Positions 31,401-39,773 of a DNA stretch of 64,000 nt are shown piece after piece. The position numbers and the translations under genes were made by a program. Every line of letters starts with the position of its first letter. The stretch's first letter is position 1. The stretch covers positions 1 through 64,000 of the forward strand of contig NZ_JADWYQ010000015.1 in the NCBI RefSeq assembly GCF_022414575.1. Reading direction: 5' to 3'. This DNA comes from Streptomyces sp. MUM 178J. GTDB taxonomy: Bacteria; Actinomycetota; Actinomycetes; Streptomycetales; Streptomycetaceae. A model generated the notes under the pieces. The model did not search any database. It was not told where the DNA came from and was given only the letters and a program-made list of their open reading frames with translations.

Positions 31401-32336
31401 ACCCCGGAGACGGCGTCGCCGGAGTTCGTCGGCTCGTACGGCTCGGTGATCCACGAGATGACGGAGGCGCGGGATGTCCGGATGGGCATGTACGGGCACT
31501 CCAACCAGGTCGCGCACCATGCCGCGTATATGTACAACGCCGCCGCGCAGCCCTGGAAGACCCAGGAGAAGGTCCGGGAGGTGCTCTCCCGTCTCTACGT
31601 CGGCAGTGAGATCGGGCAGGGGTACCACGGCGACGAGGACAACGGAGAGCAGTCGGCCTGGTACCTCTTCAGCGCGCTGGGCTTCTATCCGCTGGTGATG
31701 GGCAGCGGGGAGTACGCGATCGGCTCGCCGCTCTTCACCAAGGCGACGGTGCGGATGGACAACGGCCGCACGCTGGTGGTCAGGGCCCCGCGGAACAGCG
31801 CGGAGAACGTCTATGTGCAGGGGGTTCGGCTGAACGGCAAGCGGTGGACGTCCACCGCGCTGCCGCACCGGCTGCTGGCGCGCGGCGGGGTGCTGGAGTT
31901 CCAGATGGGGCCGCGGCCGTCGTCGTGGGGAACGGGGCCGGACGCCGCGCCGGTGTCCATCACGACGGATGACGCGGCGCCGTCGCCCCGTGCGGACGTC
32001 CTGCGGCGGTCGGGCCCGCTGGCCGACGACTCGTCGGCGACGACCGCGGAGTTCACAGAGGCGGATCTGCCTCTGCGCGAGGACGCCGCCGGGAAGCCGG
32101 TCGTCCAGTACACCCTGACCTCGTCCGCGGCGGCGCAGGCGCCGTCCGGCTGGACGCTGCAGGGCTCGCTGGACGGCACGGCCTGGAAGACCCTGGACCG
32201 GCGCTCGGGCGAGTCGTTCGCCTGGGACCGGCAGACCCGCGCCTTCACCGTCGCCCGGCCGGGCCCCTACACGCTGTACCGCCTGGTCCCGGCGAGCCCG
32301 GGCGCGACGCTCGCGGAGGTGGAGCTGCTCTCGTAG
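28482..32336 (+). CDS. secreted GH92 alpha-mannosidase with flanking discoidin-like domains
   Basis: A 1,284-residue exported glycoside hydrolase of the GH92 family (Ca-dependent exo-alpha-mannosidases acting on N-glycans or mannans). The start ATG 28482 follows AGGAGGA and encodes a Sec signal (about 1-42). A first F5/8-type-C-like domain (about 110-235) contains DWTLKGSADGKRWTVLD. GH92 then starts at about 410 (LSDYVSTVRGTNSSGSYSRGNTFPATAVP) and includes VNNGFWDTYRTTWPAYS, MYGHSNQVAHH and GDEDNGEQSAWYLFSALGFYP, all typical of the catalytic domain. A second, related discoidin-like domain closes the protein (GWTLQGSLDGTAWKTLD). Context with ngcEFG suggests scavenging of glycoprotein sugars: GH92 takes mannose while the transporter takes GlcNAc; this is inference. 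Confidence 0.92.
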   Translation: MHMTPTAHSVTLTVAASLLALTAQSAAVALPLPAQAAPAARHSTPAASFVSSFEDGDPQPDWRHAVETGPDGRQRTSGVDGGFAAGIPGNVTDRVVRLRASGENTGAGETKENLVDLQPSTKWLTFAPTAWIEFDTDEPIEVARYALTSANDFAGRDPADWTLKGSADGKRWTVLDTRKGESFAKRFETKTYDVAAGTAEPTPYAHYRLEIARNNGAPDITQLADVQFSDGDDSTPTPPSMRSHVDGGPAGSPTAKARAGFTGKRALRYAGSHNPDGRAYSYNKIFDVDTLVRRDTALSYRVFPSMPETDLNYPATHVAVDLAFTDGSYLSELKAADSHGGRLTPQGQGAAKRLYANQWNHVASRIGEVAAGKRVDRILVAYDSPVGPAKFQGWIDDITLAPEPPERPLAHLSDYVSTVRGTNSSGSYSRGNTFPATAVPHGFNFWTPVTNAGSRSWLYEYARANNADNLPTLQALSASHEPSPWMGDRQTFQLMPSAAAGVPDTSRTARALPFRHDNETARPHYYGVTFENGLKAEIAPADHAAVMRFRYPGDDASVIFDNVTAEGGLSLDADSRSFTGYSDVKSGLSTGATRMFVYGVFDAPVLDAASEGVTGRFRFDAGPDRTVTLRLATSLISVEQAKRNLSYEIPHTMRFEQVMRRAQGQWDRILGRVRVEGATRDQLTTLYSGLYRLYLYPNSGFENAGTPHRPRHRYASPFSPAEGPDTPTHTGAKIVEGKVYVNNGFWDTYRTTWPAYSFLTPRKTGELVDGFVQQYKDGGWISRWSSPGYADLMTGTSSDVAFADAYVKGVRFDAEAAYEAALKNATVVPPSSGVGRKGMETSPFLGYASTRTHEGLSWSLEGCLNDYGLAKMGEALYEKTGKARYKEESAYFLNRARNYVTLFDSEAGFFQGRGPDGAWRVPGDAYDPRVWGYDYTETNGWGYAFTAPQDSRGLANLYGGRAGLGQKLDAYFSTPETASPEFVGSYGSVIHEMTEARDVRMGMYGHSNQVAHHAAYMYNAAAQPWKTQEKVREVLSRLYVGSEIGQGYHGDEDNGEQSAWYLFSALGFYPLVMGSGEYAIGSPLFTKATVRMDNGRTLVVRAPRNSAENVYVQGVRLNGKRWTSTALPHRLLARGGVLEFQMGPRPSSWGTGPDAAPVSITTDDAAPSPRADVLRRSGPLADDSSATTAEFTEADLPLREDAAGKPVVQYTLTSSAAAQAPSGWTLQGSLDGTAWKTLDRRSGESFAWDRQTRAFTVARPGPYTLYRLVPASPGATLAEVELLS

Positions 32337-32462
32337 GGGCGTTGCAGGGAACGTCCGGCAGCCGCTGGTCACTCTGGCTGCCGCGACGTCCCGAGGACCG
32401 ACGGATCCGGCCGCCGGCTCCCGCCCTTGTGCAGAACACGGCGTCGGGCGCGCGTACGGCGA

Positions 32463-32494
32463 GGGCCGCACCCCGGTGTGACGGGGTGCGGCCC
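32463..32494. terminator. bidirectional terminator in the GH92-KASIII gap
   Basis: A 12-bp stem GGGCCGCACCCC (32463-32474) / GGGGTGCGGCCC (32483-32494), loop GGTGTGAC. The surrounding gap 32337-32685 (349 nt) holds no gene that I can support, so this hairpin serves both convergent transcripts. Confidence 0.7.
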
Positions 32495-32685
32495 CTTGTG
32501 CGGCGCGTGCGGGACGCGCTCAGCTGCGGATCAGGGGCGGCGCTCTGCTCGGTGAGATCGTCGGTGTGGAACTGCGGGGAGCGGTGGGCCTGGACGACGG
32601 CCCGTTGCATCGCCTCGTGTTCAGGGCGGTGGGGAGACGGGCTCTCGTTCAGGGCACGTCGGAGCAGTACGGGGAGGTCGATCGC

Positions 32686-33705
32686 TCAGTCCCGTCCACC
32701 GTGCCAGCGGACGGCGACGGCACCGGCGAAGTCGCCCGCGTGCGCGAACCCTCCGAGTACCACCAGGTCGCCGTCCTCGACCTGCCGGGAGCGGATCGCA
32801 CGGTCCAGGGTGACCGGGATCGCCGCGCCGAACAGATTCCCGTACGCGTCGAAGGTGTTCAGGTGCCGTTCGGCCGGCAGCTGCAGCGCCTCTCGCCAGT
32901 TTCGTAGAAAGGTGCGGTTGGGCTGGTTGGTGATGAGCACATCGATGTCGGCGGTCGCCACGCCGAGCCGCCGGCACAGGTCCGCGACCACCTCGGGGAC
33001 GAGGCGGTTCCCGCGTGCCAGGACCTTGGCGACGCCGGCGTCGGTGAACGCGATCCGCAGTTGGGACTCTCCCGGTTCCCAGTACTTGCGGCCGTCGTCG
33101 ACGGCCAGGGTCATGTCCCCGGCGTAACTGCCGATGTGCCGGGTCTCCACGTCGAGGACCGGTGCGCCGGACGACGTCGTCACATACCCCACGCCGCAGC
33201 CGTCGCCCGGGATCGCGGCCTGGGCGAGCCGGCGCACCTGGGACTGGGTGAACCATTGACCCGCGGCGCTTTGAGCATTGCAGATCAGGGCGGTCTTCGC
33301 ATCGGCGGTGGTGAGGATCTGCCGGGCCAGCTTCAGCATGTACACGAAGGAGGCGCAGCCCGCGTTGGCCACGTCGACGAGCCATTCCGGGTTCAGGCCC
33401 AGTCGGCGCGCCACCTCGGTGCCCGCGCCCACGAAGGGCAGGTCCGGCAACTGGCTGTGTACCAACAGCACGTCGACGGCTCGGATCTCTTCCCTGCCGT
33501 GCCGTTCGATCAGTGGCTGTACGGCGCGTTCGATCATGTCCGCGTTCGTCTCGTCCGCGGCCACGTGGTGCCGTAATGGCGGGACCTTGAACATGGGGTG
33601 GTGGCGGAGCTTGTCCTCGGCTCCGGGGTACTCGGTGTAGAACTCGGCGGGGACCGGCTCACCGGGAAGGTAGCTCGCGACGTCGGTGAGGCTGACCGTC
33701 GTCAC
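32686..33705 (-). CDS. KASIII (FabH-like) protein with an altered catalytic triad
   Basis: A 339-residue thiolase-fold protein of the 3-oxoacyl-ACP synthase III family. The nucleophile is Cys117 (ANAGCASFVYM) and the family Asn is Asn290 (DAYGN), but the His of the usual HQAN motif is replaced by Asn260 (TNQPNRTF). The glycine-rich loop near the end is GGFAHAGDFAGA. Loss of the His should impair malonyl decarboxylation, so acyl transfer (ester or thioester) is more likely than chain extension; this is inferred from family mechanism. Start GTG 33705 overlaps the SRPBCC stop (GTGA). It is the last gene of a four-gene operon. Confidence 0.85.
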   Translation of the reverse strand: MTTVSLTDVASYLPGEPVPAEFYTEYPGAEDKLRHHPMFKVPPLRHHVAADETNADMIERAVQPLIERHGREEIRAVDVLLVHSQLPDLPFVGAGTEVARRLGLNPEWLVDVANAGCASFVYMLKLARQILTTADAKTALICNAQSAAGQWFTQSQVRRLAQAAIPGDGCGVGYVTTSSGAPVLDVETRHIGSYAGDMTLAVDDGRKYWEPGESQLRIAFTDAGVAKVLARGNRLVPEVVADLCRRLGVATADIDVLITNQPNRTFLRNWREALQLPAERHLNTFDAYGNLFGAAIPVTLDRAIRSRQVEDGDLVVLGGFAHAGDFAGAVAVRWHGGRD

Positions 33706-34355
33706 CGCGTCACCGCCCGCGACGGAGCCGTGCTGACCGGGAGGCCGTTGCGGTGGCGGTGTTCCAGGATCGCCTTGAGGTTGTTCATCTCCACGGTGTG
33801 CCCCGCGTAGAAGAGGTCCCAGTAGTCGCCCACCCAGGGCCGGTCCGGGCGGGGCGCCTTCTCGGGATGCGGGTTGGCGTCGTAGTAGGGGTGCCGGCAG
33901 TTGGTCCAGGTGATCACCGAACCCGGCTTGTCCAGCACCAGCCGGGCCGGGACGACGCGCATCAGGTAGATCATCCACAGCTTCTCGCCCTGGTCCCACG
34001 AGCAGTGGTAGTCCACGGTCATGGCCTCGGGGTTGGCGACCACTTCGCAGTAGATCCTGGTGTCGTCCTCAAGCCGGTCGTGGCCGACCCACCGCCCCGG
34101 TGTGCCGGAGGGTGCGAAGTCCCGCAGGCTGCATGTCCATTCCTGCAGGTGGTGGCCCTGGCGCAGGTAGTCGTAGACCGCCTCCGGGGGGCAGTCCACG
34201 TACTCGTGGAGGGTGCAGTACTGCCCGTAGACCTGATGGTGGGGGTAGACGGCGTGGGTGAGCTCCAGGCAGCGGGCGGTCAGTTCCTCCTTGCCGGCGT
34301 TCTCGATCCGCAGCAGGCCGGGTATGTCAGCCAACGTGGACGATGCCTCGCTCAT
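33702..34355 (-). CDS. SRPBCC (START/Bet v1-like) family protein
   Basis: A 217-residue protein with the helix-grip pattern expected of polyketide cyclase/aromatase-like and START-type proteins: CTLHEYVDCPPEAVYDYLRQGHHLQEWT near residues 47-74 and GRWVGHDRLEDDTRIYCEV. Trp, His and Tyr residues are numerous, suggesting a hydrophobic or aromatic ligand pocket. The ATG at 34355 is preceded by AAGGAGAG and lies inside the 3' end of the ThDP gene (29-nt overlap). Its own stop overlaps the KASIII start. It could be a cyclase, a lipid/ketone binding protein or a chaperone for the carboligase product; the sequence does not decide. Confidence 0.75.
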   Translation of the reverse strand: MSEASSTLADIPGLLRIENAGKEELTARCLELTHAVYPHHQVYGQYCTLHEYVDCPPEAVYDYLRQGHHLQEWTCSLRDFAPSGTPGRWVGHDRLEDDTRIYCEVVANPEAMTVDYHCSWDQGEKLWMIYLMRVVPARLVLDKPGSVITWTNCRHPYYDANPHPEKAPRPDRPWVGDYWDLFYAGHTVEMNNLKAILEHRHRNGLPVSTAPSRAVTR

Positions 34356-36099
34356 CTGAACTCTCCTTGCTCTCGGGGCCGTTGTTGCTCTCGGTGAGGT
34401 CGGTGAAGGACCGGAAGGGGAGGAACGGCGGGATCTCCCGCGGGTCGCAGTCCACGGCGACGAACGCCGGGCCGTCGCCCGCGTTGCCTCGCAGCAGTGC
34501 CGTGCGCAGTTGCGCCGCGTCGCCGGCGCCTGTGGCATCGAGGGACGGGAAGGCGGCGGCCACTCCCGCGGCGAGGTCGGTTCGGGCGAACCGGTCGTCG
34601 TTGCGGACGCCGCCCTGGAAGAACTCCTCGCGCAGCGCGCACATGGCGTGGGCGTTGTTGTTGAAGATCACGAAGGTCACGGGTGCGGCGTACTCCACGG
34701 CGGTGTGCACTTCCATCCCGTGCATGAAGAAGGACCCGTCTCCGGCGAGGACGTAGGTGCGTCGCCCGGTGGCGAGCGCGGCGCCGATGCCGGCGCCGAA
34801 GGTGTAGCCCATGCCGCCCATGCCGACCGCCACCACGAAGCGGCCGCGGCGCGGCGCCGGGAGCAGATGGACGGCGCTGGCCCCCGCGTTGCCGGCGTCC
34901 ACGAAGACGTGTGCGGCCTCGGGGAGCGCGGCCTCCACCGCGGCGAGCGCCTGGGCGCAGGGGATGGTTCGCCCGCGGGCTTGAGGAGGCGGGCTCGGCA
35001 TGGGGGTGGGAAGGGGGCCAGCGTGCGGGGGGCAGGGACGTGGGCGGGGCGGCAGGCGGGCGGTCACCGCGCGCAGCGCGTCCCGCAGGTTCCCCTTCAG
35101 CGCGGTACCTGCCACAAACGGCGGTTCGGGGCCGAGGCAGACGACATCGGTGGTGGCCAGGGCCCGGTCGAGGCCGCCGCGTGCCAGGAGCGGCAGCCGG
35201 GTACCGACCAGCAGACATACGTCGGCCCGCCGCAGACACTCTTCGACGTTGGCGTGGCCCATCACCCCGGCCACGCCCGCGAAGCGCGGGTCATGATTGT
35301 CGAAGACGTCCTTGGCGTCCGGGGTGACCGCGACCCATGCCCCGAGGCGCCGAGCCAGTTCGGCCAGCTCCGTGCGCGCGTCGGCGGCGGCGAGTTCCTC
35401 ACCGGCGATGACGAGGACGCGGCCGGCCTCGCGAAGGGTGTCCGACACGGTGGTGAGGGTGGCTTGGTCGAGCCGCGCCGCCGATACCGTCCGCACCGGG
35501 GCGCACGGGTCCGGGGCCACGCGACGGCCGGTCACCTGGAGCCGTGCCTGCTGCACGTCCTTGGGTAGCAACAGTACGGCCGGCCCGCGCGGATCGGCCT
35601 GCGCCGCCGCCACTGCCCGGGGCAGCAACTCCACGAGCGCGTCCGCGTCGTCCACCCGGGCGCAGAACCGGGAGACGGGGGCGAAAACCTCCTTGGCGTC
35701 GAAGGAGCCCGCCTTGCCGCTGGAGTCCTGGAACGCCCCGCGGCCCTCCTGGCCGGTCGGCGGCTGGCCCACAAGGGCCAGCACGGGCACCCGCGAGGCA
35801 TGGGCCTCCGCCAGGCCCGGTAGGAGATTCATCGCCCCGCCGCCCGAGGTGGCGGCTACGACACCGATGCGCCTGGTGGTGCGCGCGTATCCGTCGGCCA
35901 TGGTGACGGCGGAGAACTCGTGTTTGGCGACGACTCCGCGGACGGCGCCACAGCGGTGCACCGCGTCGTACAGGTCCTCGATGTTCGCGCCGCCGACGCC
36001 GAACACGTGGGTGACGCCGGCCTTCGCGAGTTCCGCGACCAGATGGTCGACGAGGCGTTCCGTTTGCGCCTCGCGTAGATTCGAGGTCGTCCGGGTCAT
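34327..36099 (-). CDS. ThDP-dependent carboligase/decarboxylase (acetolactate-synthase family)
   Basis: A 590-residue enzyme with the three-domain layout of the family: PYR (about 1-180), central (about 195-330) and PP (about 375-565). The cofactor-activating Glu61 is in AKHEFSAVTMADGYAR. The ThDP/Mg motif is GDGS (453-456) to NNN (480-482). The usual GxPG near the N-terminus is replaced by GVGGAN. The linker around residues 350-375 is unusually Pro-rich (PPRPRPCPPHAGPLPTPMPS). Overall it resembles acetolactate synthase, sulfopyruvate/phosphonopyruvate decarboxylase and acyloin synthases. It is not a housekeeping IlvB: no regulatory subunit is adjacent. ATG 36099 overlaps the stop of the regulator gene (ATGA). 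Confidence 0.85.
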   Translation of the reverse strand: MTRTTSNLREAQTERLVDHLVAELAKAGVTHVFGVGGANIEDLYDAVHRCGAVRGVVAKHEFSAVTMADGYARTTRRIGVVAATSGGGAMNLLPGLAEAHASRVPVLALVGQPPTGQEGRGAFQDSSGKAGSFDAKEVFAPVSRFCARVDDADALVELLPRAVAAAQADPRGPAVLLLPKDVQQARLQVTGRRVAPDPCAPVRTVSAARLDQATLTTVSDTLREAGRVLVIAGEELAAADARTELAELARRLGAWVAVTPDAKDVFDNHDPRFAGVAGVMGHANVEECLRRADVCLLVGTRLPLLARGGLDRALATTDVVCLGPEPPFVAGTALKGNLRDALRAVTARLPPRPRPCPPHAGPLPTPMPSPPPQARGRTIPCAQALAAVEAALPEAAHVFVDAGNAGASAVHLLPAPRRGRFVVAVGMGGMGYTFGAGIGAALATGRRTYVLAGDGSFFMHGMEVHTAVEYAAPVTFVIFNNNAHAMCALREEFFQGGVRNDDRFARTDLAAGVAAAFPSLDATGAGDAAQLRTALLRGNAGDGPAFVAVDCDPREIPPFLPFRSFTDLTESNNGPESKESSDERGIVHVG

Positions 36100-37118
36100 A
36101 CGGGGCTCCTGTCCCTCTCATGCTGCCGGTCGATGAGGCCGGACGGCGAGATGACCTGAAAACGGTGCCGGTATTCCTTCGGGGTGAGGCCCAGGATCCG
36201 TCCGAAGGAGCGGAAGAAGGTTTCGGGGGCGGCGAATCCGCAACGGCCAGCTATCTGACAGATCGTCAGGTCGGTGGTCTCCAGCAGTTCACGAGCGCGG
36301 GCGATACGCATCCGCTCGACGTACTGGCCGGGTGTCGTGCCCGTCTCGCGCCGGAAGACCCGGGCGAAGTTGCGCTGACTCATGGTGGCCTGCCGGGCGA
36401 TCTCGGCCACGGGCAGCGGGTTGTGCAGGTTGCCCAGAATCCACTCCTGCGCCGCCCTGATCGGCGGATGGTCGGCCAACTGGGCATCGAGGACCGCGCT
36501 GTACTGGGACTGCCCCCCGTGCCGCTTGAGGAACAGCACCAGAAACCGTGCCGTCTCCAGCGCGAGCGCCGCCCCGTGATCGGCCTCCACAAGAGCCAGC
36601 GCCATGTCGATGCCCGTCGACACGCCCGCGGAGGTCACGAACGGGCCGTCCCAGACGAAGATCGGCTCGGCATCCACCGTCACTGCCGGATAGCGGCACG
36701 CCATCGCTTCGCTGTACGCCCAGTGCGTGGTGGCGCGCCTGCCGGCGAGCAGGCCCGCCTCGGCCAGCAGAAAAGATCCGCCGCACACGGAGGCGATGCG
36801 GCGCGACCGGGCCGCCGCCCCGCCGATCCAGGAGATCAACTCCCGGTCCCGCAGTGCGTCGTGGAGACTCCAGCCGCCCGGCACGAGGAGTGTGTCGATC
36901 GGCCCCTGCCCCGCCTCCAGGGGCGCGGCTTCCACCACAACTCCTGAACTCGTGTGCACCAGCGGGGCGTCGGCGGAGACGAAGTCGACGCGGTAGGGGG
37001 CGCCCGACGGGCCGAGGAGCCGGTTGGCGGTATCGAACACTTCAATGGGCCCGGTGATGTCCAGGGCCATCGCGCCCGCGTACACCACCACAACAACACG
37101 TCGTTCGATCACGGTCAC
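36096..37118 (-). CDS. GlxA-family (DJ-1/AraC) transcriptional regulator
   Basis: A 340-residue regulator with an N-terminal DJ-1/PfpI-like domain (RVVVVVYAGAMALDITGPIEVFD; nucleophile-elbow-like SVCGGSFLLAEAG) and a C-terminal AraC-type double HTH (about 215-320: ATMSQRNFARVFRRETGTTP). A minus-strand promoter, TTGCAG (37143-37148) and TACAGA (37121-37126) spaced 16 nt, ends three nucleotides before GTG 37118, so translation probably begins without a leader at GTG 37118 or at GTG 37112. Its stop overlaps the ThDP gene start, so regulator and enzymes are one operon, probably autoregulated. Confidence 0.85.
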   Translation of the reverse strand: MTVIERRVVVVVYAGAMALDITGPIEVFDTANRLLGPSGAPYRVDFVSADAPLVHTSSGVVVEAAPLEAGQGPIDTLLVPGGWSLHDALRDRELISWIGGAAARSRRIASVCGGSFLLAEAGLLAGRRATTHWAYSEAMACRYPAVTVDAEPIFVWDGPFVTSAGVSTGIDMALALVEADHGAALALETARFLVLFLKRHGGQSQYSAVLDAQLADHPPIRAAQEWILGNLHNPLPVAEIARQATMSQRNFARVFRRETGTTPGQYVERMRIARARELLETTDLTICQIAGRCGFAAPETFFRSFGRILGLTPKEYRHRFQVISPSGLIDRQHERDRSPV

Positions 37119-37421
37119 AGTCTGTATTGCACGCCGAACTGGCTGCAATGACAGATTACTGACGTATCCGGCCAACAAGCAGCCGGCGGACCGGGCAGAG
37201 GGCTGCCGGCCAGGCAGTTCGGGCGCCTGAGCGGACGGGCCGGGTGAGGCAGCTCACAGTGCATCGGTGCAGTCGTGCAGCGGAGCGGCGCCATCGGGGT
37301 GGCGGCAGGCTGCTGTGAATTCGTGGGGTGTTTGAACGCAGCCGGGGTCGTCTGCGTAGGGGGTGGAAGGTCTTCACTTTGACCGTCATTCCCGGGCAGC
37401 ACGACGCGTAGGAGTATTCTC
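37119..37421. other. 303-bp divergent gap between the regulator and the DUF1996 gene
   Basis: It holds the minus-strand promoter described for the regulator (37121-37148). On the other side, TTGACC (37379-37384) and the TAGGAG ribosome site (37409-37414) belong to the DUF1996 gene. The middle, about 37160-37370, has no convincing ORF or repeat. Confidence 0.45.
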
Positions 37422-39773
37422 GTGAGACGCAACGCACGCAGACGCCCTACAGGCGCACGGCGCGCGACCTTCGCATCGGTCGCGCTGATCATGGGCGGAG
37501 GGGGGCTGGTAGCGGCGAACTTCTACGCTTCGGCGCACGAGTCCAACGACTCCGGGCAGAACCGGACGAAGTCTGCTGCCACCCAGATCGCGACCATCAA
37601 GTGCCCTGACATCGGGCAGCAGTTGGCGGACGTGCCGGACAAGGCGCGGGCCGGCGTCGACAGGGAGCTGGCGAACCTCGACAAGCAGGTCAACGAGGCC
37701 TATGCGAGGCTGACGTCCACGCGCAAGGCGCAGGCGGGTGACACGTCGTTCGTGCAGAACGCGATCCTCGGTCCGCTGAAGGACAAGCGGACGGCGGTGA
37801 TCGACAGGATACGGGTGGACATCGAGCGTCTCGGCGGTACCTTCGACGACTCGCTGAAGGAACTCGCGAACTGCACCGCGGTGGCCGCCGACCAGGTGCA
37901 GGCCGATGCCGGCCAGAACAACGGCGACCAGCAGCCCGGCGGTGAGCAGGGGCAGAACGACAACGGCGGGCAGCCGAACATCGGCGGTCAGGTCGGCAAC
38001 GGTCCGGTGGCGGACGACTTCGTCGACATCACCACGGTCCAGCCCAACGTCCAGCCGGCGCCGCGGGCCAACGGCAGTGCCTCGACCGGCACGTTCAGCG
38101 TCTCCTGCGGTGTAAACGAGAACAACAACTTCAACACCGACAACCTGATCGTGGCCCCCGGTGTGAACAACGGCGCGCGCCACACGCACGACTATGTGGG
38201 CAACCAGGATGTCAACGCCTTCTCCAAGGACCAGGACCTGGCCAACGCCGCCACCACCTGCTCGGAGAAGGGCGACAAGTCGGCCTACTACTGGCCGGTC
38301 CTGCGTCTGCAGGACGGCACCAAGGAGTTCGACGACAACAAGCTCGGCGGCGGTGCGGAGGGCAACGCGGGCAGGATCCTCAAGGCGAGGACGGCCGAGA
38401 TCACGTACGTGGGCAGCCCGACGAGCAAGGTCGTCGCGATGCCGAAGTTCCTGCGCATCATCACCGGTGACGCCAAGGCCTTCAGCAACGGCACGGCGAA
38501 TGCCAACGCGCACTGGAGCTGCACCGGCTTCGAGGACAAGGTCCAGCTCACGGACAAGTACCCGCTGTGTCCCCAAGGCAGCGGCGTGGTCCGCTCGTTC
38601 GCCTTCCAGAGCTGCTGGGACGGCCGGAACATCGACAGCGCCAACCACCGCTCGCACGTCGCCTTCGCCGACGCCGAGGGCAACTGCCAGAACGGCTTCA
38701 AGGCGATTCCGCAGCTGACGATGCGGCTGGTGTACGACGTTCCGACGCCGACCATCGAGAACGGCCAGGTGAAGAACCCGTTCGCGGTCGACGGGTTCCA
38801 GACCGAGTTGCACAAGGCGATCACCGACCACGACGACTTCATCAACGTCATGGACGGCAACCTGATGAACAAGGTGGTCGACTGCATCAACAGCGGTCGG
38901 CAGTGCGGCACCGGAGCCGCGGAACAGCCACAGGACGAGCCCACGGCGACCGTTGACGCGGGCGCCGGGTCCGGGAACGGCAAGGGCGGCATGAACCAGG
39001 ACACCTCCGGAAACATGAACCCGCCGCAGGCAACGCCCAGCACGCGGGCAGCCGAACCGGCGCGCGAGGGCTCGACCAGGGACCACAGCGCGGCGCCCGA
39101 GGTGGACAAGGCGTCCTCCCCGGCCGGAGAGGTGGACAAGGCGCCCTTGTCGGCCGAGCAGAAGGCAAGCACGCCCTTGTCGGCCGAGCAGAAGGACAAG
39201 GCGCCCTCCTCGACCGAGCACCAGGACAAGGACAAGGCACCCTCGTCGGCCGAGCAGAAGGACAAGGCGCCCTCCTCGACCGAGCACCAGGACAAGGACA
39301 AGGCACCCTCGTCGGCCGAGCAGAAGGACAAGGCGCCCTCCTCGACCGAGCACCAGGACAAGGACAAGGCACCCTCGTCGGCCGAGCAGAAGGACAAGGC
39401 GCCCTCCTCGACCGAGCACCAGGACAAGGACAAGGCACCCTCGTCGGCCGAGCAGAAGGACAAGGCGCCCTCGTCGACCGAACACCAGGACACGGCGCCC
39501 TCCTCGACCGACCAAGGGGAAGAGCCCACAGAGGCATTCCGGAACGGCTCGGACGACAGCCAGGTCACCGGTGCGGCCGACCCCGAAGCCTCGTCGGTCG
39601 CTTCGCCCGCCGGTGGGGGTGCTCCGTCCACGGAGCCGCAGACCGAAACGCAGACGGTCGCGGGTGACCTGGCCGAGACCGGCACGACCCTGTGGCCGGC
39701 CATGATCGGCGGGGCGCTCATGCTCGCCGGTGCGATGCTCCTCCTCGCCAAACGGCGGCGCCGCTCCGTGTGA
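37422..39773 (+). CDS. sortase-anchored DUF1996 surface protein with Lys/Pro/Ser repeats
   Basis: A 783-residue cell-surface protein. GTG 37422 follows TAGGAG. After a basic start comes an export helix (about 18-33, [19 protein letters not shown]). A Gln/Asn-rich linker ([10 protein letters not shown]) precedes the DUF1996 domain (about 228-470), with Cys-containing segments ([29 protein letters not shown]) and HTHDYVGNQ. The C-terminal 180 residues are low-complexity ([10 protein letters not shown] repeats) and act as a wall-spanning stalk. It ends with the sortase motif LAETG (750-754), a hydrophobic stretch and KRRRR, i.e. a class E type sorting signal. The role of DUF1996 is unknown; in fungi and actinobacteria it is secreted. 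Confidence 0.87.
39195..39491 (+). repeat. 66-bp coding tandem repeat (4 full copies plus half)
   Basis: Four copies at 39195, 39261, 39327 and 39393 and a 33-bp partial copy (39459-39491), the full copies essentially identical at nucleotide level. Each encodes 22 residues in two halves, [12 protein letters not shown] and [10 protein letters not shown]. Degenerate earlier units (LSAEQK) occur from about 39150. Nucleotide identity rather than mere amino-acid similarity implies recent expansion by recombination or slippage. Confidence 0.9.

Follow-up and report, generated by a model that had tools for sequence, protein, structure and literature searches.

A probable minimal carbazole-core cassette led by a GlxA-type regulator in Streptomyces sp. 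MUM 178J

The 64-kb stretch of Streptomyces sp. MUM 178J DNA analyzed here (contig NZ_JADWYQ010000015.1, positions 1 to 64,000; hereafter the window) contains a minus-strand operon of four genes, all open and full length. In order of reading, these encode a GlxA/FtrA-like regulator of 338 aa with DJ-1/PfpI and AraC helix-turn-helix (HTH) domains (36096..37112, GTG start at 37112, with an alternative in-frame TTG start possible at 37178), a CqsB3/NzsH-like carboligase of 590 aa dependent on thiamine diphosphate (ThDP) (34327..36099, ATG start at 36099; Pfam TPP_enzyme N, M and C domains), a CqsB2-type carbazole synthase of 217 aa with the SRPBCC fold (33702..34355, ATG start at 34355), and a CqsB1-like ketosynthase (KAS) of the KASIII type, 339 aa in length (32686..33705, GTG start at 33705; ACP_syn_III and ACP_syn_III_C domains, FabH relatives in PDB). 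The gene calls bear out the overlaps listed in a preliminary description made from the DNA letters, i.e. 4 nt (ATGA) between the regulator and ThDP genes, 29 nt between the ThDP and SRPBCC genes, and 4 nt (GTGA) between the SRPBCC and KAS genes. That description counted four genes and thereby missed a fifth, namely a HisC-like (CqsB7/NzsD-like) aminotransferase, of which a decayed N-terminal remnant was detected by tblastn 3' of the KAS gene at 32536..32682(-).

The identity of the SRPBCC protein came from a search against PDB sequences, in which, with E-values up to 1 admitted, CqsB2 (6ipv, E 3.7e-50) was the sole match. Pfam and NCBIfam annotation by itself leaves the protein nameless: Polyketide_cyc2 reached 22.2 bits, under its gathering score of 27.4, and no NCBIfam model matched. 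CqsB2 is the carbazole synthase in carquinostatin biosynthesis, and five catalytic residues have been named in it, E105, Y144, Y172, H206 and E209 (PMC7466098). By mapping these through locus L075, whose protein is near-identical to CqsB2 and for which a single numbering offset fits all five positions, they were found to align with D93, Y130, Y158, H186 and E189 of the window protein. Four of the five are thus identical, while E105 is replaced by Asp. With a CqsB2-type carbazole synthase as its SRPBCC protein, the pathway is expected to form a carbazole ring rather than to end at the final product proposed in the preliminary description, an acylated acyloin-like or butenolide-like metabolite, which consequently finds no support here.

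Related loci were found by way of the SRPBCC protein and grouped by its identity to that of the window. Group A (at least 71%) comprised 39 loci with flanks (L031-L064, L067, L086-L088 and the window), later 47 with L121-L128, which are longer stretches for eight group-A genomes; residue, context and tree counts rest on the earlier sets. Group B (53-61%) held 13 loci, and group C, the CqsB2 side (39-45%), L072-L076 and later also L091. A further 13 loci belong to a second actinobacterial family, f3 (L108-L120). The E105 position is Asp in 39 out of 39 group-A loci, in 13 out of 13 group-B loci and in all 120 database proteins listed, and Glu in all five C loci; in a wider set, Asp occupies it in 221 out of 221 database proteins, and 75 locus rows divide into 69 with Asp and six with Glu. 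At the other four positions, L119 and P0339 show gaps, the latter also a Thr, and a decayed copy (L068, identical to L077) has Gln and Arg; there are no other exceptions.

The other two enzymes are of the types that accompany the carbazole synthases of the carquinostatin (cqs) and neocarazostatin (nzs) clusters. In these, the ThDP enzyme CqsB3/NzsH joins indole-3-pyruvate and pyruvate (PMC7466098; for NzsH also PMC9822442), the KASIII-like CqsB1/NzsJ condenses the product with an acyl group on an acyl carrier protein (ACP), and CqsB2/NzsI closes ring A (PMC7466098). The catalytic Glu61 and the GDG/N motifs of the ThDP enzyme are kept in every aligned row, and the window enzyme is 33-36% identical to those of six CqsB2-side loci. 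Its best PDB relatives are BbmA and CsmA, for which no source paper was traced in our literature searches. In the KAS, Cys117, Asn260 and Asn290 align with the Cys-His-Asn triad of FabH, i.e. the Cys and the last Asn are kept and the His has become Asn. All 120 database matches listed have the same Asn, as do 68 out of 68 rows from loci not on the CqsB2 side (one of these loci entering twice, window excluded), the chlocarbazomycin-like loci described below being among those that share the change, and the six CqsB2-side rows all have His. As carbazoquinocin and carbazomycin enzymes are posited to take, probably, acyl donors without a beta-hydroxy group (PMC7466098), this difference may concern the acyl donor.

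The order GlxA-ThDP-SRPBCC-KAS was found in 46 out of 47 group-A loci (39/39 and 7/8), where the ThDP gene of L088 is in two pieces and the single exception, L127, is a record that starts inside its ThDP gene. The count leaves out the stretches of about 3 kb (L001-L030), which partly duplicate other loci, and the decayed L068/L077 copy. A lack of co-occurrence of the four genes in other genomes, which the preliminary description had named as a refutation of its proposal, is thereby itself refuted. Together with pairwise ratios of nonsynonymous to synonymous substitution rates (dN/dS) of 0.14-0.30 for the four genes, the shared order indicates more than a chance association. The ThDP and KAS genes stand beside the SRPBCC gene in every group-A locus, the presence of the latter being given by construction. 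In f3, the order ThDP-SRPBCC-KAS-aminotransferase was found in 11 out of 13 loci. The decayed copy belongs to Streptomyces sp. NRRL S-337; it has no regulator, and a second, four-gene copy lies on another contig of that strain (L086).

Relatives of the SRPBCC gene were present in 37 out of 392 sampled Streptomyces genomes, of which 22 belonged to group A (own genome included), 11 had identities of 53-60%, and five matches fell at 42-45%, with one genome harboring both of the latter classes. In a phylum-wide draw, 14 out of 396 genomes had such relatives (12 of them in f3), and among 41 genomes searched as relatives of the strain, own included, the gene was found in two. By shared flanking genes, the 39 group-A loci fell into 28 context groups (flanks of up to 10 kb, some shorter, and crude gene calling). 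A fixed chromosomal site was considered and rejected, as none of the window's predicted flanking genes starting between 15 and 60 kb had, in the fetched loci, a match of more than 50% identity and half length. The patchy distribution, the 28 context groups and the lack of shared flanks make the operon location-variable in a manner that fits horizontal transfer. ThDP-SRPBCC-KAS sets were also seen on plasmids of Tsukamurella (L089) and Rhodococcus (L090), with a TrpB-like gene nearby in the former; Tsukamurella is the source genus of the lipocarbazoles. The protein cluster nearest to the KAS is named after S. avermitilis, and a literature search on this species and carbazole found nothing relevant.

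The aminotransferase is the least constant member of the locus. A near full-length HisC-like gene lies directly 3' of KAS in 21 out of 47 group-A loci (17/39 and 4/8), with one stop in four of the 17 matched stretches, where the open frames called are 332 to 349 aa long. It is partial or a remnant in five (the window, L040, L056, L086 and L125) and is cut by the contig end in L032, and in 20 loci no match was found directly 3' of KAS while the other genes are kept. The L031 protein, an Aminotran_1_2 member by Pfam, shares 51-55% identity with its counterparts in three C loci, and matches the window with 64% identity over 50 aa (E 3e-11). There, the nucleotide similarity to the relatives ends at about position 32537, and the window has ATC at the place of the relatives' start codon. 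CqsB7 converts tryptophan to indole-3-pyruvate (PMC7466098), and the gene is here taken as a replaceable supply gene outside the three-enzyme core. An aminotransferase encoded elsewhere in the genome (43% identity to that of L031, with one TGA within the matched stretch) could stand in for the broken operon gene.

A tree of the SRPBCC, KAS and ThDP proteins was built with a quick method on 50 rows and with the root chosen on group C. Five loci that were decayed or had a partly read ThDP gene (L068, L077, L071, L082 and L088) were left out, as were, to save time, a further 20 group-A loci, which leaves 18 rows of this group. These form one clade and the six C rows another, each with a support of 100 in the Shimodaira-Hasegawa-like approximate likelihood ratio test, and a long branch separates the two. 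Within the side that holds group A, the first to diverge are eight Streptomyces group-B rows (85). The C side is recognized as the reference side because L075 carries a near-identical CqsB2 together with the prenyltransferase type of L072. The latter locus has a squalene/phytoene-synthase-type prenyltransferase, a cytochrome P450 and a NUDIX protein, and relatives of its prenyltransferase are found in L074 and L075 and not in L073 and L076, i.e. the type occurs in three of five C loci. Group-B loci L070, L071, L080, L083, L084 and L085 share a flavin adenine dinucleotide (FAD) oxidoreductase, two short-chain dehydrogenases/reductases (SDRs) and more, with PP-binding, DAO and adh_short among the Pfam domains of L083. 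The protein sizes of the chlocarbazomycin cluster (341, 83, 441, 308, 338 and 585 aa for chlCz3, 4, 6a, 7a, 7b and 2, respectively; PMC10100901) give L085 a fit to six and L083 to five (all but 585 aa) of the nine published sizes, some of these matches being due to chance, given a mechanical search for the sizes in every frame. In addition, the same six loci have genes for a cyclopropane-synthase-like methyltransferase and a desaturase-like protein, both absent from the published chlCz table (PMC10100901).

Nine proteins from group-B and C clusters, namely an ACP, the cyclopropane-synthase-like methyltransferase, the FAD oxidoreductase, the two SDRs, the desaturase-like protein, the prenyltransferase, the P450 and an isopentenyl-isomerase-like protein, matched nothing in the window (E 1e-3) or in the group-A loci, 47 in all (E 1e-10, 35% identity, 60% length). 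Hence neither the subtype markers of carquinostatin and neocarazostatin (phytoene-synthase-like prenyltransferase, P450 and isopentenyl diphosphate (IPP) isomerase) nor those of chlocarbazomycin (ACP, FAD oxidoreductase and SDR) were matched in these sequences.

Since the operon unites the three enzymes of the core set, namely a CqsB2-type synthase, a ThDP enzyme like NzsH/CqsB3 and a ketosynthase like CqsB1, we consider it likely to be a minimal carbazole-core cassette, making the three-ring carbazole skeleton from tryptophan by reactions that are each predicted by homology. It would be a pared-down counterpart of the known pathways to antioxidant and antibiotic carbazoles. An aminotransferase would convert tryptophan to indole-3-pyruvate, and as the one in the window is broken, another must serve. 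The ThDP enzyme would then yield an acyloin-type acid by NzsH/CqsB3 chemistry (PMC7466098). In the preliminary description a ThDP carboligase and a KASIII-like enzyme had been placed in a small-molecule operon with its regulator, which is supported, the acyloin-type acid now being the expected first intermediate. The ketosynthase would be loaded with an acyl group on Cys117 and condense it with the acid under loss of CO2, and the SRPBCC protein would close and aromatize ring A to a 1-alkyl-2-methylcarbazole-3,4-catechol, oxidizing to the ortho-quinone. Because prenyltransferase, P450, FAD-oxidoreductase, SDR and ACP genes do not accompany the operon, primary metabolism is the probable source of the acyl group, and the product is probably near the bare core, i.e. 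carbazoquinocin-like or a 1,2-dimethyl analogue, so that by analogy an untailored 1-alkyl-2-methylcarbazole catechol or quinone would be expected.

Several observations weigh against this reading. We know of no product for the group-A clade, and it is by sequence that this clade, the f3, Nocardia, Rhodococcus and Tsukamurella sets and the chlocarbazomycin-like sets are linked to a carbazole. On its side of the tree, the clade closest to group A comprises f3, Nocardia, Rhodococcus, Tsukamurella and L069 (with a weak support of 82) rather than the chlocarbazomycin-like loci. The group-B loci themselves look chlocarbazomycin-like by gene types and sizes rather than by accessions; the sizes of chlCz1, 5 and 6b are not met at the right genes in L083 or L085, and that of the synthase, 199 aa, agrees instead with P0272, a protein 96% identical to that of L071 (PMC10100901). 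The KAS is just 22-27% identical to the CqsB2-side ketosynthases and has Asn where these and FabH have His, so its reaction may differ from theirs, and the donor specificity assumed for the ThDP enzyme is likewise carried over by similarity. Furthermore, the intact CqsB7/NzsD/chlCz1-type aminotransferase is not present at the window operon. Finally, changes unique to the window amount to 19 synonymous and 17 nonsynonymous for SRPBCC and KAS combined, versus 21 and 7 on the L031 side, a shift seen neither in the regulator (25:10 versus 17:6) nor in the ThDP enzyme (28:10 versus 37:16); the numbers are small, and they hint at relaxed constraint on these two proteins in this strain.

This last ratio and the aminotransferase remnant, along with the existence of a decayed copy in another strain, would also be expected if the operon were a non-productive relic in MUM 178J, an explanation that is compatible with carbazole formation in the relatives. 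The full-length open frames of all four genes and their pairwise dN/dS speak against it, as do the 20 group-A loci that keep the remaining genes without an aminotransferase match and the further aminotransferase in the genome, and we regard it as unlikely. Alternatively, the same three steps could act on phenylpyruvate or 4-hydroxyphenylpyruvate and give a non-carbazole aromatic ring, given that HisC-like aminotransferases are not tryptophan-specific by sequence and that the identity of the ThDP enzyme to its CqsB2-side counterparts is modest (33-36%). Yet the mechanism proposed for CqsB2 uses the indole pi electrons for ring closure (PMC7466098), the cyclase residues are kept, and some loci on this side of the tree resemble chlocarbazomycin clusters, which together make a different aryl pyruvate quite improbable.

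The pairing of a ThDP enzyme with a KASIII-like protein is likewise what one would see in an operon for an acylated acyloin or butenolide signal, in which the KASIII-like enzyme would O-acylate the acyloin, as in the xenocyloin pathway, and the SRPBCC protein would bind or lactonize it. The KAS without the FabH His could mean such different chemistry, and the CqsB1/NzsJ product is itself unstable and converts spontaneously to indole esters (PMC7466098). Against this stand a CqsB2-type partner with kept catalytic residues, for which an ester pathway has no need, and the occurrence of ThDP and KAS genes beside the SRPBCC gene, the criterion of selection, in all group-A loci. A signal of this kind therefore appears highly improbable. 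The ThDP acyloin-forming step is present in the xenocyloin pathway, and to our knowledge neither this nor the sattazolin pathway has a carbazole synthase, which by description sets both apart from the window operon. The operon has such a synthase and thus falls outside the acyloin ester pathway, in which a ThDP enzyme is combined with an acylating KASIII protein and no carbazole synthase. What likeness there is lies in the acyloin-forming step, which for sattazolin is described in PMC9822442.

With carbazole formation as the preferred reading, the closest known systems are those for carquinostatin A (CqsB1, B2, B3 and B7) and neocarazostatin A (NzsH, I and J). The former resembles the operon in its adjacent ThDP, synthase and KASIII-like genes and in the HisC-like aminotransferase that many relatives of the window have. 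It differs in the prenyltransferase, P450 and IPP isomerase of such loci, which have no match in the window, and the window in turn has Asn for His in the KAS, Asp for Glu105 in the synthase, another gene order and a GlxA regulator. Neocarazostatin A, compared by way of its description in a review (PMC7466098), shares the three enzyme types and shows the same differences. The chlocarbazomycin system (chlCz2, 3 and 5) and the group-B loci L083 and L085 fall on the same side of the tree as the window, and group B shares the Asn of the KAS and the Asp of the synthase. The ACP, FAD oxidoreductase and SDR genes of these loci are however unmatched near group A, and no GlxA-type match was found in them. 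A report of carbazoquinocin in Micromonospora (PMC10817652) was considered as a link to a product and set aside as a weak lead, its identifications being computed annotations (0.05 with one tool, 58-71% with another). As to whether orthologous operons have already been characterized, a point raised in the preliminary description, homologous three-enzyme sets are known in cqs and nzs, and no description of a GlxA-led, tailoring-free version was found in the open-licence literature searched. What is new is thus the minimal, regulated variant.

The regulator (Pfam DJ-1_PfpI and HTH_18) has FtrA (PRK09393) as its best NCBIfam model, at 232.8 bits and under the cut-off of 425, and no match to it was found in the fetched group-B, C or f3 loci at the thresholds used. 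It probably controls its own operon. Upstream of it, a block is conserved (37113..37260, minus strand) in an alignment of 26 orthologous loci whose regulator is over 80% identical and which have at least 260 nt of upstream sequence. Of these, 23 have a TGGCSNGWW box at 62 nt from the start codon, and 24 have one somewhere, while a GTGAG-N4-CTCAC inverted repeat (37244-37257(-) in the window, about 145 nt before the start) is found at 144-147 nt in 20, all these counts being inflated by the relatedness of the sequences. On both strands of the entire window there are nine matches to the box and one to the repeat. The box resembles the binding consensus of AdpA, a regulator of the same DJ-1/AraC architecture; the full form of this consensus, TGGCSNGWWY, is met in just five of the 26 regions. 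Within 32200-37600, a scan for consensus elements revealed no sigma-70-type promoter, so that of the dedicated promoter suggested in the preliminary description it is the conserved upstream block that stands. The terminator suggested there fared similarly: a scan of the same region found no T-run terminator 3' of the operon, its one site lying inside the regulator gene, and a repeat search with folding instead located a perfect, GC-rich 13-bp inverted repeat with a loop of 6 (32463..32494) between the operon and a convergent GH92 gene, a possible terminator devoid of a T-run.

On the other side of the operon, at 37422-39773(+), lies a gene for a DUF1996 protein with a 66-bp tandem repeat (39174-39492, 4.8 copies, 98% matches). 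Its predicted C-terminus, LAETG followed by a hydrophobic stretch and RRRR, resembles that of a sortase-anchored surface protein, the class to which it presumably belongs.

Taken more broadly, the carbazole-forming sets may fall into two deep subtypes, one with a Cys-His-Asn KAS and a Glu synthase, using beta-hydroxyacyl donors, and one with a Cys-Asn-Asn KAS and an Asp synthase, using plain acyl donors. The latter would include the window clade, the chlocarbazomycin-like loci, the Nocardia, Rhodococcus and Tsukamurella sets and the large family f3, and within it the window clade would be a bare, GlxA-regulated, tailoring-free and location-variable operon, making a redox-active alkylcarbazole quinone that is sensed by its own regulator. 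We put this forward tentatively, as a reading that may well prove wrong. An operon annotated until now merely as SRPBCC protein, thiamine-pyrophosphate enzyme and 3-oxoacyl-ACP synthase nonetheless gains a known chemistry and a predicted product class, and the clade-wide change of His to Asn in the KAS poses a directly testable question on the workings of this enzyme class. If the cassette does make the carbazole core, its three or four enzymes would constitute a very short carbazole route that is easy to express, and if the division into two subtypes is true, actinobacteria would produce carbazoles much more often than the few known producers imply.

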